Below, in pieces: positions 10,995 to 38,633 of a stretch of 56,598 bases of DNA (its first letter is position 1; each line of letters starts with the position of its first letter). The notes beneath the pieces were generated by a model. That model did no database searches, had not been told where the DNA came from, and saw nothing but the letters and a program-made list of their open reading frames with translations. The DNA is taken from assembly GCA_003560595.1 (NCBI GenBank), contig PWKY01000063.1, positions 1-56,598 of the forward strand, in the 5' to 3' direction. Position numbers and translations under genes: made by a program. The stretch comes from Thermoplasmata archaeon. Lineage in GTDB: Archaea > Thermoplasmatota > Thermoplasmata > Halarchaeoplasmatales > Halarchaeoplasmataceae.

Positions 10995-11209
10995 TAATTT
11001 CCTCCTTCTTCTTTTTTGTTTTCATTCATGACCGTAAGTATTCTAGCGATGTTCTTTTTTAAAGCCTTGATCCTTCCTGGACTCTCGGGAGCACCACCCA
11101 TCGCGGCCTGCCCTCGATCATGGAATAGTTCTCCTCTCATCTCTTTGAGCTTTTCTTTTTTTTCTTCATCGCTCATAAGTCTTATTTCTTCAGTTTTAAG
11201 CAGAGGCAT
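10994..11209 (-). CDS. rpl29: 50S ribosomal protein L29
   Basis: Protein uL29 at the exit tunnel rim, 71 residues, an antiparallel helical pair: [27 protein letters not shown], then [19 protein letters not shown]. The start overlaps the end of rps3 by 14 nt, showing that the long S3 tail is translated right up to the neighbour. Stop TAA. Confidence 0.94.
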
Positions 11210-12419
11210 CGTCTTTCACCTCGTTTTCATCATCTTCTTCATCAGCCTTCTCAACCTCGGGTTCAACCTTTTCTTTAGGATCTTCTTTCTTTGAATCCTT
11301 TTTCTCGGCTTTCTTTACCTTGGGTTCAACCCTTTCCTTAGGATCTTCTTTCTTTGAATCCTCTTTCTCGGCCTTCTTTACCTTGGGTTCAACCCTTTCC
11401 TTAGGATCTTCTTTCTTTGAATCCTCTTTCTCGGCCTTCTTTACCTTAGGTTCAACCTTTTCTTTAGGATCTTCTTTCTTTGAATCCTTTTCCTCGCCCT
11501 TCTTTACCTTGGGTTCAACCTTTTCTTTAGGATCTTCTTTCTTCGAATCCTTTTTCTCGGCCTTCTTTACCTTAGGTTCAACCTTTTCTTTAGGATCTTC
11601 TTTCTTTGAATCCTTTTCCTCGGCCTTCTTTACCTCGGCCTTCTTTACCTTGGGTTCAACCTTTTCTTTAGGATCTTCTTTCTTCGAATCCTTTTTCTCG
11701 GCCTTCTCAACCTTGGGTTCAACCCTTTCTTTTGACTTTTCCTCTTCAGGCTGTTTTTCTTTCTCGGGATCCTTAACTTGATCCACAGGTGAATCTTTCT
11801 CTTCTTTTGATTTATCATCCAACTTTGGAGCACTGACATCGATTTCATCAGGTAATCTTGCATTTGGATCCATGATCTGAACGGTCACACCGATCACACC
11901 AAGCTTAACTTTGGCAGTTGCAAATCCCTCATGCATCCACTTCTTTTCCTCCTCACCACAGTGCTTGATATGCCCGTCTACAAACTTTTCTACACGATGT
12001 CTAGGTCCAGTGATCTTTCCAGATAAAATGATCTGACAACCTCTAGCACCAGATTGTAATATGCGTCTGACAGTGGAGTGCCCGGCTCTTCTAAAATGCC
12101 ATCCCCTTTCTAAAGAATTAGCAAGTTTGGACGCCATTATCTGAGGATTGAGCTCTGGAACGTTAACTTCTTGAACTTCGATCTGAGGATTGTCAAAGTT
12201 GAATTTCTCTTGGACATCGGAGGTAAGTTTACGGATATTCCTACCCTTCCTTCCGATAACTAAAGCTGGACGTTCTATATGTAGAGTGATACGTGTTCCC
12301 ATAGGTGTTCTCGATACTTCACACCCTCCAAATCCGGCTCTATCAGTTTTGTCCTTGAGGTACTCTTTTAGCAATACACGGTTCATCTTTTCATTTATAA
12401 ATTTCTTTTCACTAGCCAA
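11196..12419 (-). CDS. rps3: 30S ribosomal protein S3 with a long repetitive KE-rich C-terminal tail
   Basis: Protein uS3 at the mRNA entry channel. Residues 1-200 form the usual KH domain (ERPALVIGRKGRNIRKL) and C-terminal S3 domain (GHSTVRRILQSGARGCQIILSGKI, ending VQIMDPNARLPDEIDV). Residues 205-407 are an extra tail made almost wholly of Lys, Glu, Asp, Pro, Val and Ala. It is built from seven copies of a 20-residue unit of the type DSKKEDPKEKVEPKVKKAEK, plus a partial copy and an acidic end. Archaeal S3 is usually about 200-260 residues, so the tail nearly doubles it. It is in frame and terminates inside rpl29, so it is probably expressed as a disordered polyampholyte. Confidence 0.93.
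   Translation of the reverse strand: MASEKKFINEKMNRVLLKEYLKDKTDRAGFGGCEVSRTPMGTRITLHIERPALVIGRKGRNIRKLTSDVQEKFNFDNPQIEVQEVNVPELNPQIMASKLANSLERGWHFRRAGHSTVRRILQSGARGCQIILSGKITGPRHRVEKFVDGHIKHCGEEEKKWMHEGFATAKVKLGVIGVTVQIMDPNARLPDEIDVSAPKLDDKSKEEKDSPVDQVKDPEKEKQPEEEKSKERVEPKVEKAEKKDSKKEDPKEKVEPKVKKAEVKKAEEKDSKKEDPKEKVEPKVKKAEKKDSKKEDPKEKVEPKVKKGEEKDSKKEDPKEKVEPKVKKAEKEDSKKEDPKERVEPKVKKAEKEDSKKEDPKERVEPKVKKAEKKDSKKEDPKEKVEPEVEKADEEDDENEVKDDASA
11250..11740 (-). repeat. 60-bp tandem repeat encoding the S3 tail
   Basis: About seven consecutive 60-bp units plus a partial one, nearly identical at the DNA level (core on the plus strand: TTCTTTAGGATCTTCTTTCT). One unit carries a 15-bp extra piece that repeats KKAEV. 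The high identity suggests recent expansion by slippage or unequal recombination. Copy number may be mis-assembled. Confidence 0.9.
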
Positions 12420-34307: not shown

Positions 34308-34850
34308 TTATCCAGGAAGAGTAGCCATAACTACTGTGATATCCTCTTCTGCCTCTTCGTCTTCGAGTTCTTCCAATCGCTTTCGTGTGTCATCGAAGAT
34401 CTTTCTTAATTTCTCTACATTTTTCTTAGTGAGCGGTACCTTCTCGTAGGAAACCCATCCCACCTCGCTTTCTATCTTCTTTCTTTTTTGTATGTATCTG
34501 ATGCCCCGGTTTACCATGCCTTTTATGGTGCCAAGTGCAGCCAGCTTATAGTTCTTCTTTTGTTCAAGTGTTAGATCGTCCCAAACTGCAGAGGAATCTA
34601 ACCATTCTTCTTCCACTGCGTAATAGCATTTCATCAGATTTCCACATCGTTCCTCTCTGCTCACGTGGATAAGTCCCGCATCCATAAGTTTGTGTATGTG
34701 GTGGTACACGGTCTGCGGAGTTATACCGATCTCTTCAGCGAGCTCGGATATCGCTCTTTCACCATCCAATAATAGGGCCATCACTTGAAGACGGGATGCG
34801 TTCGAGAGTATTTTGATTTGATTCACGGTCGGTTTTAGTTCTTCGGGCAT
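34308..34850 (-). CDS. ArsR-like winged-helix transcriptional regulator
   Basis: 180 residues. Residues 8-75 form a winged helix: IKILSNASRLQVMALLLDGERAISELAEEIGITPQTVYHHIHKLMDAGLIHV, typical of ArsR-type regulators. The C-terminal half is helical and charged (KNYKLAALGTIKGMVNRGI, then KLRKIFDDTRKRLEELEDEEAEED) and may serve in dimerisation. It has no cluster of metal-binding Cys. It is divergent from the microprotein pair across 130 bp that contain a perfect palindrome, so it may regulate them and itself. Confidence 0.82.
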   Translation of the reverse strand: MPEELKPTVNQIKILSNASRLQVMALLLDGERAISELAEEIGITPQTVYHHIHKLMDAGLIHVSREERCGNLMKCYYAVEEEWLDSSAVWDDLTLEQKKNYKLAALGTIKGMVNRGIRYIQKRKKIESEVGWVSYEKVPLTKKNVEKLRKIFDDTRKRLEELEDEEAEEDITVVMATLPG

Positions 34851-34893
34851 ATCGACACCTTAAAATGCTATCTTAACGACAAGAAGTAATCGA

Positions 34894-34952
34894 AATATTT
34901 AAATATTACCCCTGTCTTATGTTCATTAATACGCCATATTAACGCTAATATG
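34894..34952. promoter_or_regulatory. Divergent promoter with AT palindrome and candidate operator
   Basis: AATATTTAAATATT (34894-34907) is a perfect palindrome that can serve as a TATA box in both directions, about 44 nt from the regulator start. CATATTA-ACGC-TAATATG (34935-34952) is an inverted repeat with 7-bp arms, placed near the expected start site of the microprotein transcript. It looks like an operator for the adjacent winged-helix protein. Confidence 0.5.
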
Positions 34953-34980
34953 TTAATGATAACGAAACAAGGTGGTCAAA

Positions 34981-35055
34981 ATGGAAAAAAAAGATACAAA
35001 CCCAAGAAACAATCCGTGGATCCTTAGGCAATTAGAGTACCAAACTCGCCAATAA
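34981..35055 (+). CDS. Microprotein 1 (24 aa), tandem pair
   Basis: ATG to TAA with a good binding site (AAGGTGGTC) 4-12 nt upstream. The product begins MEKKDTNPRNNPWILR and ends TRQ. It matches the product at 35107 in 16 of 24 residues. Where both encode the same residue some codons differ in the third base (CCA/CCG, AAT/AAC), and the replacements include conservative ones (I/V, L/M), which is the pattern of selection on protein. No known family. Confidence 0.7.
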   Translation: MEKKDTNPRNNPWILRQLEYQTRQ

Positions 35056-35106
35056 AGCGGATAAAGCCAGTATTTGAATGAACCTATAAGTAAAGGGGGA
35101 TCAAAG

Positions 35107-35181
35107 ATGGAAAAAAAAGATACAAACCCGAGAAACAACCTGTGGGTACTAAGACATATGCAGTACGAGCACCGCCAGTAA
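35107..35181 (+). CDS. Microprotein 2 (24 aa), tandem pair
   Basis: Paralogue of the product at 34981 with the same length: MEKKDTNPRNNLWVLR at the start and HRQ at the end. The binding site GGGGGATC precedes the ATG by about 5 nt. The highly charged N-terminus, central Trp and basic/aromatic C-terminus give a short amphipathic peptide without membrane character. Function unknown; options include a small regulatory peptide or a subunit of a larger complex. Confidence 0.7.
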   Translation: MEKKDTNPRNNLWVLRHMQYEHRQ

Positions 35182-35183
35182 AG

Positions 35184-35204
35184 GGGTACTGCATCCCGGT
35201 ACCC
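35184..35204 (+). terminator. Stem-loop after the microprotein pair
   Basis: GGGTAC-TGCATCCCG-GTACCC (6-bp stem, 9-nt loop) begins 3 nt after the second stop. No T-run follows, so it may stabilise the 3' end rather than terminate. The remaining 210 bp up to the next gene hold only AT-rich sequence with no gene that I can support. Confidence 0.35.
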
Positions 35205-35414
35205 ACTTGAAACCCTTTCCTATATTGTTTTACCCTGATCTCTTTCTCAGAACTCATAGGGATCATCATCGGATGGTGCCTCAACATAAGATTTTTCATC
35301 ATCGAAAGAAGATCAAGGTTGATGTAAATTGTATTGATGATATTAGGATTTTTAGGTATTCTAGGGGAAATTAAAAAATACAAACCCCGTATTACCTAAT
35401 TTAAAGTGATAACG

Positions 35415-37700
35415 ATGCAGATGCCCGCTGGAAAAACGATAAGGACCGAATTTGGAGGAAAAGGCGTACTAGAAGATTTTTTTAAGGAGTTCAATGATAA
35501 ATCCATCGAAGGGTATCTTCAAACTAGTTTAACCAAGGACTCAGAGCGTTGTATAGGAAGGATTTTTTTCTACAAAGGGGAGCCTATCGCCTCGGCAAGA
35601 CATGGGAAAAAAGATAAGTTTGGGAAAAAATCGCTCAGGGAGATCGCTGCGGATTCTCTCGACGAAGACTGTCTTCTAGAGCTACATTCTTACTCTTATC
35701 GATCTTCATCCATATCTGTTGAACACATACTCAAAAACAAAGAGAACTGGTATATCCGGGAGGATATCAATATATCCCTAGAACTCGATAGAGCTAGCCG
35801 TAGATATAAAGGAGAAGATACAGAGGACAAGATCACTACCGCACCACTAAAAGACATCGAAATAAGTAGATCGGATATAGATGTAGATATTGGTACTATG
35901 GAGGAAAGACCCAGGCATATAATCCCGAGCTCGGATGATGATATAGTAGAGAGGGCTGAAAAAAAACTTTTGAAAATGAAAGAAGGTAAGCTCAAGAATG
36001 AACTTGAAGAGATGAAAGAAAAGCTAGATTCAAGGCAGGTCGAGCTCAGGGAAAAAGAAAATGAATTACAAGATTGGGCCGATAAACTTACTGAAAAGGA
36101 AGATGAACTAAAACAAAGGTCCGCCGAAGTAAAAAAAGAGATGAACGAAGTACGGAATATCTGGTCTGAGATGAGAACAGAGAGTGCAAAGATATCTAAA
36201 GCAAGAGCCGAACTGGAAAACAAAATAAGCGAACAGATGGCCAGAGAAGAAGAACTGTTGGAAAAAGAGAGGGATCTACGGGAGTTGAAAAGAGATCTAG
36301 AACAGTGGGAAGTAGATATCAAATCCCGGTCTTCTAAATTGGGTGTAATGGAGGAGGAACTCAGCAATTGGGAACGAGATATATCTAACAAAGAAAAACG
36401 TTTAGATTCCATGGAGCTTGATATCGAACAGAGGGAAGAGGATGTATTTGAGAAAGAGATAGGTCTTCAGGAGCAAAACAAAGAATTAAAAGATAAAAAG
36501 GAGAGGTTAGAAGAAACCGAACAGCAGATAAAGAAGGTAAAAGAAAGTTTAGAAAATCGAGAAAGGGAGGCGAAATTGAAGGAAGAGGAGTTGAAAGTAA
36601 AAGAGGAAAACCTTTCTCAAAGGGAAGATAAATTAGACCGAGAACAAGAGAAAGTAAAGGAGTTAAAAGCAGGATTAAAATCCGATCGGGAATCCATCAA
36701 AAGGATGAAAAAAGATTTGCTATCTAAAGAAAGTTCATTACAACGTAAGGAATCTGAGCTAGAGGAATTAGATAAGGAACTGGATGAGAGGAAGGAAGGA
36801 TTGGATGATAAAAAATCAGAGCTAGATAAACGTACGATCACCCTCAATGAAAGAGAGATAGAACTCACCAAACGAGATAATGAATTAGATAATAAAGCCG
36901 ATAAGATAATGGCTGCGCAGGAGGATGTGGAAGAAGAAAAGGATCGTTTGATAGAGTGGCGTGAGTCCTTGAAAAGAAAGGAAGAACGCCTTGAACAAGA
37001 CAAAGAGAAGCTCGATAAGAGAGAGGAAGATTTAGAAAACAAATATCAGGAACGCTTATCGGATCTAGATTCCAAAGAAGAAGAATTAAAGGAGTTGAAG
37101 AGAAGTCTCAGTGGGCGGAAGGGTGCACTGCAGCGTAAAGAAAATATCCTTGACGATAGGGAAGAGAAATTGGATGAACGCGGATCTAAACTCGATGAAA
37201 GGGAAGAGCAGTTGGAAGAGCAAGAGGAAAACATAGAGAAGGGGATGCAGGAACTCAATGAAAAACGGAGGCAGGTCATGGAGGAGTTGGATCAGCAACG
37301 AGATAAGTTGAAGGACGAAAAAAGTGCTCTGAAAACTAAAAAAGAAGACCTTAAAAAGCAAGAAAAGGAATTACAAGATAAGGCAGAGAAAATCAAGATG
37401 AAGTTAGCAGATATCATGGATGATCGTGATGAGCTTGATGAAAAAGAGATACAGTTAAAAAAGCTTGAGGATGACCTATCAGAAAGGGAAAACTCTTTGG
37501 TAGGAAAAGAAAGCGACTTTGCAGCTAGAGAAAAGGAGCTAGATATCAAAGAGAAAGAGCTGTTAAACAAAGAAAAATCTTTGGATGACCGGGAGTCTGA
37601 TTTAGAGACCAGAGAAGCTCAGATGGAGGAGAAAGAAGACCTTTTCTCTAAGAAGAAGAATTCTCTAGATGAGATAAGAAAAGGTCTTGATGAGATCTGA
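35415..37700 (+). CDS. Giant coiled-coil protein (761 aa) with an N-terminal globular domain
   Basis: Residues 1-115 are globular (TEFGGKGVLEDFFKEFND, then GRIFFYKGEPIASARHGKK and a LREIAADSL helix) and recall DUF2226/DUF4388-type domains, in which a short strand-rich module carries a FxxGxPxxA turn. Residues 115-175 form an acidic linker. Residues 180-761 are an almost unbroken coiled coil rich in Glu, Lys, Leu, Arg and Asp, with units such as LDEREEELEEQEENIE. No membrane segment. Predicted as a rod tens of nanometres long, possibly cytoskeletal or scaffolding. ATG 35415 follows GTGAT; a GTG at 35406 is in frame. Stop TGA. Confidence 0.75.
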   Translation: MQMPAGKTIRTEFGGKGVLEDFFKEFNDKSIEGYLQTSLTKDSERCIGRIFFYKGEPIASARHGKKDKFGKKSLREIAADSLDEDCLLELHSYSYRSSSISVEHILKNKENWYIREDINISLELDRASRRYKGEDTEDKITTAPLKDIEISRSDIDVDIGTMEERPRHIIPSSDDDIVERAEKKLLKMKEGKLKNELEEMKEKLDSRQVELREKENELQDWADKLTEKEDELKQRSAEVKKEMNEVRNIWSEMRTESAKISKARAELENKISEQMAREEELLEKERDLRELKRDLEQWEVDIKSRSSKLGVMEEELSNWERDISNKEKRLDSMELDIEQREEDVFEKEIGLQEQNKELKDKKERLEETEQQIKKVKESLENREREAKLKEEELKVKEENLSQREDKLDREQEKVKELKAGLKSDRESIKRMKKDLLSKESSLQRKESELEELDKELDERKEGLDDKKSELDKRTITLNEREIELTKRDNELDNKADKIMAAQEDVEEEKDRLIEWRESLKRKEERLEQDKEKLDKREEDLENKYQERLSDLDSKEEELKELKRSLSGRKGALQRKENILDDREEKLDERGSKLDEREEQLEEQEENIEKGMQELNEKRRQVMEELDQQRDKLKDEKSALKTKKEDLKKQEKELQDKAEKIKMKLADIMDDRDELDEKEIQLKKLEDDLSERENSLVGKESDFAAREKELDIKEKELLNKEKSLDDRESDLETREAQMEEKEDLFSKKKNSLDEIRKGLDEI

Positions 37701-37703
37701 TCC

Positions 37704-38633
37704 TTACCCCATCATCTCCGCCATTATAGCTTTCTGTGCGTGTAATCTGTTTTCAGCTTGGTCGAATACAACAGAATGAGGTCCATCCATAACTGATGCA
37801 GATATCTCAACACCACGATGTGCTGGTAAGCAGTGCATGACTATGACCTCCTCGGTAGCTCGTGACACAAGCTCGTCGTTCACTTCGAAGCCTTCAAAGT
37901 CATTCAATCTGCGTTTCTCATCTTCTTCATCTCCCATGGATATCCAAACATCGGTGTATATGATAGTCGTACCTTTCACAGCTTCTTTCGGTGAGTTGCT
38001 TATAGATATTACAGCGCCAGTTTCTTTACCGATCTCCTGAGCCTTCTTGAATATCTCCTGGTTCGGTTCGTACCCCTTAGGCGTACATGCGGTCACATCC
38101 ATCCCGACTGCAGCACCGCCTAGTAAAAGAGAGTTACAGACGTTATTTCCATCTCCAACGTAAACCAAGTGTTGATCTTCAAAAGTACCTTTTATCTCCC
38201 GTATAGTTAGCAGGTCTGCCATGATCTGACAAGGATGTTCTAGATCGTCTAAACCGTTGATCACGGGGATAGTAGCGTTCTCAGCTAGTTCCACCATCAT
38301 CTCGTGTTTAAAAGCTCTGTACATGATCCCGTCGACGTAACGACTCAGTACCTTGGCTGTGTCAGCGATGGTTTCCCCTCTTCCTATCTGAAGATCCTTT
38401 GGGCTGAGATAAAGGGCGTGTCCACCGAGTTGTGTAGTTCCAACTTCAAATGAAATCCTTGTTCGAGTGCTTGGCTTCTCAAATATCATCCCGAGGCTCT
38501 TTCCCTCAAGGGGAGTAAATGGCTCGCCGTTCTTATGTTTCTTCTTTATCTCTCCTGCGATCCTCAAGAGCTCTTTTATCCTATCCTGTATGTCCAATAT
38601 CGATATCAAATTTTTTTTCATTTTATCACTCAT
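37704..38633 (-). CDS. argF: Ornithine carbamoyltransferase
   Basis: Makes citrulline from ornithine and carbamoyl phosphate in arginine synthesis. 309 residues. Motifs: the carbamoyl phosphate site EKPSTRTRISFEVGTTQLGG, the HPCQIMADLLT region, DGNNVCNSLL and the ornithine-binding HCLPAHRG. It overlaps the purC stop by 8 nt and is convergent with the coiled-coil gene, 3 nt apart. Stop TAA. Confidence 0.96.
   Translation of the reverse strand: MSDKMKKNLISILDIQDRIKELLRIAGEIKKKHKNGEPFTPLEGKSLGMIFEKPSTRTRISFEVGTTQLGGHALYLSPKDLQIGRGETIADTAKVLSRYVDGIMYRAFKHEMMVELAENATIPVINGLDDLEHPCQIMADLLTIREIKGTFEDQHLVYVGDGNNVCNSLLLGGAAVGMDVTACTPKGYEPNQEIFKKAQEIGKETGAVISISNSPKEAVKGTTIIYTDVWISMGDEEDEKRRLNDFEGFEVNDELVSRATEEVIVMHCLPAHRGVEISASVMDGPHSVVFDQAENRLHAQKAIMAEMMG

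Follow-up and report, generated by a model that had tools for sequence, protein, structure and literature searches.

A conserved ArsR-like regulator and a divergent microprotein mRNA form an apparently dedicated two-part unit in one archaeal class

Introduction

In Escherichia coli, the small protein MntS is controlled by MntR, an example of a small protein under a dedicated or autoregulated repressor. At the locus described here, a repressor would likewise control a gene for a short peptide, and we liken the two systems by their mode of working, with no claim of sequence relation. They differ in that here the regulator and the microprotein are a divergent pair with one bidirectional promoter, and the microprotein is the apparent only non-self target of the regulator.

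Archaeal micro-proteins of fewer than 70 residues are known from Haloferax, where zinc-finger members have been studied (PMC6562870, PMC10716476). Unlike these, the first microproteins of the 37 loci considered below (one per locus) all lack cysteine and are therefore not zinc fingers of the C(P)XCG type. The regulator has its closest PDB relative by sequence in PH1932 of Pyrococcus horikoshii (1uly, 2cwe). Both PH1932 and the heat-shock regulator Phr of P. furiosus (2p4w) resemble it in having an ArsR-type winged helix and a long C-terminal helical part, but the sequence alignment covers only the N-terminal 70 residues or so. No description of the unit was found in the literature on the unit itself, its hosts, PH1932 and small archaeal proteins, and two-part units of this kind, a repressor with a divergent microprotein, had not been named before.

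Results and Discussion

Tandem 24-codon genes in the window

The window, a stretch of 56,598 nucleotides from a salt-loving archaeon, carries two plus-strand ORFs, each of 24 codons and a stop: microprotein 1, MEKKDTNPRNNPWILRQLEYQTRQ, at 34981-35055, and microprotein 2, MEKKDTNPRNNLWVLRHMQYEHRQ, at 35107-35181. Each is preceded by its own SD-like ribosome site, AGGTGGT at 34970-34976 and AAGGGGG at 35093-35099, respectively. A preliminary description of this DNA had recorded the pair, its separate ribosome sites, the equal length and the identical start of eleven residues, all of which are present; its count of 16 shared residues is to be replaced by 17 of 24 (71%), residues 1-11 being the same in both ORFs. 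The synonymous changes that it had noted are also there, the common residues being encoded by different codons (CCA/CCG, AAT/AAC, CTT/CTA, AGG/AGA and CAA/CAG). Homologues that keep the reading frame were found in close relatives (G004, G005, G006 and G013), and the supposed coding constraint, assessed as pN/pS, was seen in both copies (0.22 for the first and 0.32 for the second; 0.9-2.6 in the other frames). Neither of the two outcomes that the preliminary description had named as refuting it, a lack of homologues in close relatives or frameshifts within the 24 codons of homologous DNA, was observed. Judged by their sequence, the two 24-residue genes are real. An opposite-strand ORF (35084-35383) was set aside because it is the plus-strand frame that carries the coding signal.

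Duplication of the ORF is not confined to the window. G013 and all but one of the four g1 genomes have two copies, and tandem pairs recur in the family f64, where a further ORF preceded by an SD of its own is present at two loci (L041, L044) and a similar second ORF at three (L040, L043, L046).

Microproteins across the class

Orthologues of the regulator were detected in 37 of 400 genomes of the class (E<=1e-16), and the intergenic regions of 37 orthologous loci, mostly from metagenome bins, were read; the home family of the window is referred to as f1. At every one of these loci, the regulator faces a divergent ORF of 20-51 codons that is led by an SD. When the ORF was required to have 20-55 codons and a strict SD at a fixed position, 35 of the 37 loci qualified, compared with 0.55 expected from dinucleotide shuffles, a ratio that expresses the rarity of such an ORF at a fixed place, the centre of the start window having been taken from the observed ORF. 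Pooled over eight groups, pN/pS was 0.33 (range 0.22-0.58), and the other two frames gave 0.86 to 2.63; the pooled p value of about 1e-27 is approximate, as pairwise counts were pooled as if independent. The substitution pattern thus points to microproteins under clear coding constraint, though their sequence changes fast. Those of different genera are near unalignable, and between families they are nearly unrecognisable, so that a common peptide function is uncertain.

The peptides are basic near the N terminus (35/37) and have a mean net charge of +3. A Pfam scan returned no match for either window ORF, and none was obtained for microprotein set A5 in Pfam or set A4 in NCBIfam, scans that cover families other than f64 and f16. 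The sequence FVIVNGNIFF had hinted at a beta-hairpin for the microproteins; the AlphaFold model is a helix, at a pLDDT of 61.5 that is too low to choose between the two folds.

The divergent regulator

Upstream on the minus strand (34308-34850) lies a single-copy gene for a regulator of 180 aa, which is apparently dedicated to the locus. The earlier reading of the ORFs as divergent from an ArsR-like gene is borne out by a match to HTH_5 (PF01022) at 46.4 bits (cut-off 22), by the orthologues and by the predicted fold: the AlphaFold model (pLDDT 83.7) matches 4g6q, PH1932 (1uly), Phr (2p4w), CzrA and SmtB, the first three being the best. The NCBIfam metalloregulator model NF033788 scored 48.1 bits, below its cut-off of 55, and the Phr model NF053602 scored 23.1 bits, far under its cut-off of 320. 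In the regulator alignments A1 and A2, no cysteine occupies an invariant or nearly invariant column, a result that concerns cysteine ligands for a metal and leaves His/Asp/Glu sites apart.

One promoter between two putative operators

A TATA-like box is present in 37/37 loci. In the window it is the bidirectional palindrome AATATTTAAATATT (34894-34907), within CGAAATATTTAAATATTACCCC, and it is almost invariant in the 14 f1 loci; the palindromic promoter of the preliminary description is real. The box is flanked symmetrically by two putative operators, both imperfect palindromes: operator 1, TTAAAATGCTATCTTAACG (34860-34878), lies at the inferred ArsR transcription start and keeps its position in the 14 f1 loci, and operator 2, TTAATACGCCATATTAACG (34926-34944), lies at the inferred start of the microprotein mRNA. 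The earlier account was narrower than the present one, as it lacked the symmetry contributed by the second operator, the stem between ORF and 3'-UTR, and the C/D-box sRNA described below. In a best-palindrome scan, the top palindrome was centred 31-36 nt from the start of the TATA box in many loci of f1, f16, f64 and f18 and in part of f6. The scan missed this expected place at some loci, several of them in f1 and f6, and picked another palindrome there.

In the f1 genomes, matches to the operator consensus with at most one mismatch were found at the home locus only, and a single match with two mismatches lay elsewhere (G009:C29). At three mismatches, non-home matches were near the level of a reversed-pattern control. 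In six methanogen genomes, every operator match with at most one mismatch falls at the home locus. These scans are consensus-based and would miss degenerate sites, and the consensus is too far from the f64 operator to test that family. Near-consensus operators are almost exclusive to the home locus, and the microprotein mRNA therefore looks like the only non-self target of the repressor.

Proposed working of the unit

We consider it probable (about 0.6) that the locus is a vertically inherited, autoregulated unit of two parts, a dedicated repressor and a divergent microprotein mRNA whose peptide or peptides are the effectors. The reading draws on the conserved co-occurrence, the coding constraint, the position and near-exclusiveness of the operators, the covarying stem of the home family and a regulator tree that follows taxonomy. 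The ArsR-like repressor would bind the two operators, covering both starts of the one promoter, and would shut off its own gene together with the short divergent mRNA. Some signal would release the repressor, and the short mRNA would be made and would yield, on translation, one or two microproteins some 20-50 residues long, which may be the effectors that act on a target in the cell. Home-family mRNAs might owe their 3' end and stability to the stem and a pyrimidine tail. Where the preliminary description had spoken of a regulatory or stress-peptide family, the anatomy of the locus fits the word regulatory only.

When several families of a class retain a regulator whose sole target seems to be a microprotein mRNA, that microprotein is marked as worth dedicated control. 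The unit also offers a route to microproteins that change too fast for homology search, namely to track the conserved regulator and inspect the region across its promoter.

A stem and tail in the home family

The last ORF of the f1 loci pairs with the 22 nt that precede the AAAC tail. In the window, the 5' arm of the closing stem, GTGGGTAC (35142-35149), lies inside microprotein 2 and the 3' arm, GTACCCAC (35199-35206), lies beyond the stop codon, both on the plus strand. They are followed by the tail AAACCCTTTCC and a T-rich stretch (35210-35220, plus strand), the probable 3' end of the mRNA and a putative terminator, which is conserved in the 14 f1 loci. Own arms paired better than swapped ones, with none of 20000 permutations as good; for 12 of the 14 loci, all cross-genus partners offered to a given 3' arm paired worse than its own, and the stem thus covaries between f1 genera. 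Over all loci, folds of the last ORF had a mean z of -1.1, and many f6 and f64 loci show the stem weakly or lack it. The stem as a general element was rejected on this value; as far as the folds tell, it is a feature of f1 and not of the class. Inspection by eye showed no consistent pairing between the tail and the ribosome site of the same unit.

These observations bear on the strongest rival of the proposed unit, a dual-function RNA in which the mRNA itself is a small regulatory RNA, with a stem and an exposed C/U-rich tail that could pair with ribosome sites on other transcripts, the short ORF adding a second function. It is the strongest because conservation in f1 is higher for the stem and tail than for the peptide; the covariation of the stem, the conservation of AAACCCTTTCC and the occurrence of CCTCCTTT in several f6 tails speak for it. 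The weakness or absence of the stem in many f6 and f64 loci, however, counts against such an RNA, a plain archaeal terminator would also look like a T-rich tail, and pN/pS indicates selection on the peptide. We regard it as a doubtful alternative, though the conserved f1 stem allows an RNA action besides that of the peptide. Similarly tentative, and rather unlikely in our judgement, is a far-reaching form of the two-part unit, in which an old, class-wide device has as its sole output a fast-evolving microprotein mRNA acting both as a peptide and as a structured RNA, with a repressor that serves nothing else.

Peptide and repressor evolve at different rates

The strict pairing of the two genes and the near-exclusive operators would also suit a self-contained switch, in which the microprotein would act back on the repressor of the unit as an anti-repressor or co-repressor. 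Within the home family, however, the regulator is 63-90% identical to that of the window, whereas the microproteins of different genera are near unalignable, which is unlike a conserved binding pair. The microprotein as a mimic of the repressor was rejected: when 20 microproteins from 17 loci were compared with their own regulators, the similarity was within the level of shuffled peptides. Feedback is thus unlikely, the microprotein changing far faster than the repressor and bearing no resemblance to it.

Distribution and inheritance

The link between regulator and microprotein holds more widely than first described, since the unit spans six families of one archaeal class. In the home family, 14 of 16 genomes carry the regulator, in single copy (E<=1e-10), and the two genomes that lack it are 90% and 64% complete. 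With a broader profile, the regulator was found in 10 of 380 genomes of the phylum (E<=1e-18). Named records of the home family are Thermoplasmata bins, for example Ca. Halarchaeoplasma, Haladaptatiplasma and Saliniplasma. The gene mcrA is present in the f18 genome and in those f6 genomes that were tested, which are therefore taken as methanogenic members of the class. Some relatives of the mcrA-bearing members are cultured, and the presence of the unit in such members makes its signal, its translation and the effect of a knock-out directly testable.

The regulator tree follows the assigned families, with some forks open and L039 on a long branch, and no mobile or patchy spread of the unit was seen. 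This vertical inheritance in single copy disfavours a toxin-antitoxin unit in which the ArsR-like protein would be both antitoxin and autorepressor, a reading that an autoregulated pair of genes and a small basic peptide might otherwise suggest; moreover, the regulator is the larger and more conserved partner. We hold this explanation to be very improbable.

Downstream genes and other elements of the window

Downstream of the unit in the window is a same-strand gene (35406-37700, plus strand) for a coiled-coil protein of 764 residues that matches RNase Y N-terminal and SMC models weakly. Its place is taken by a different gene at L017, by a CPBP-protease-like gene in f6, by the start of an argF-like gene in f9 and f18 and by an SDR-like gene in f64 (relatives' genes named by reading). 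Least probable of the explanations weighed is thus a leader peptide of an attenuator controlling the downstream gene, to which the short ORF, the overlapping stem and the T-rich tail would be suited, because that same-direction gene differs between families and even within f1.

An argF-like gene lies near the unit in f6, f9 and f18 (L056, L061 and L063) and at 37704-38633 on the minus strand of the window, probably an old shared gene order.

Adjacent to the unit, a C/D-box sRNA was recognised on the minus strand (35245-35306; box C 35296-35303, C' 35263-35271, D 35247-35250); its Rfam matches, to sR41 and sR-tMet, are weak and fall below the gathering scores. It is found downstream in 13 of the 14 f1 loci, L017 being the exception. 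Its D guide complements ACTCATAGGG, of which the genome has just one further copy, in an Rfam tRNA; by reading, the anticodon of this tRNA is CAT and its intron follows position 37, and ARAGORN made no call. In unspliced tRNA-Met, the duplex with the D guide would straddle the border of exon and intron, with C34 as the position addressed. Elsewhere in the window, a ribosomal protein predicted by reading to be uS3 (11196-12419, minus strand) has a long tail of KKEDPKEKVEPKVKK repeats at its C terminus.
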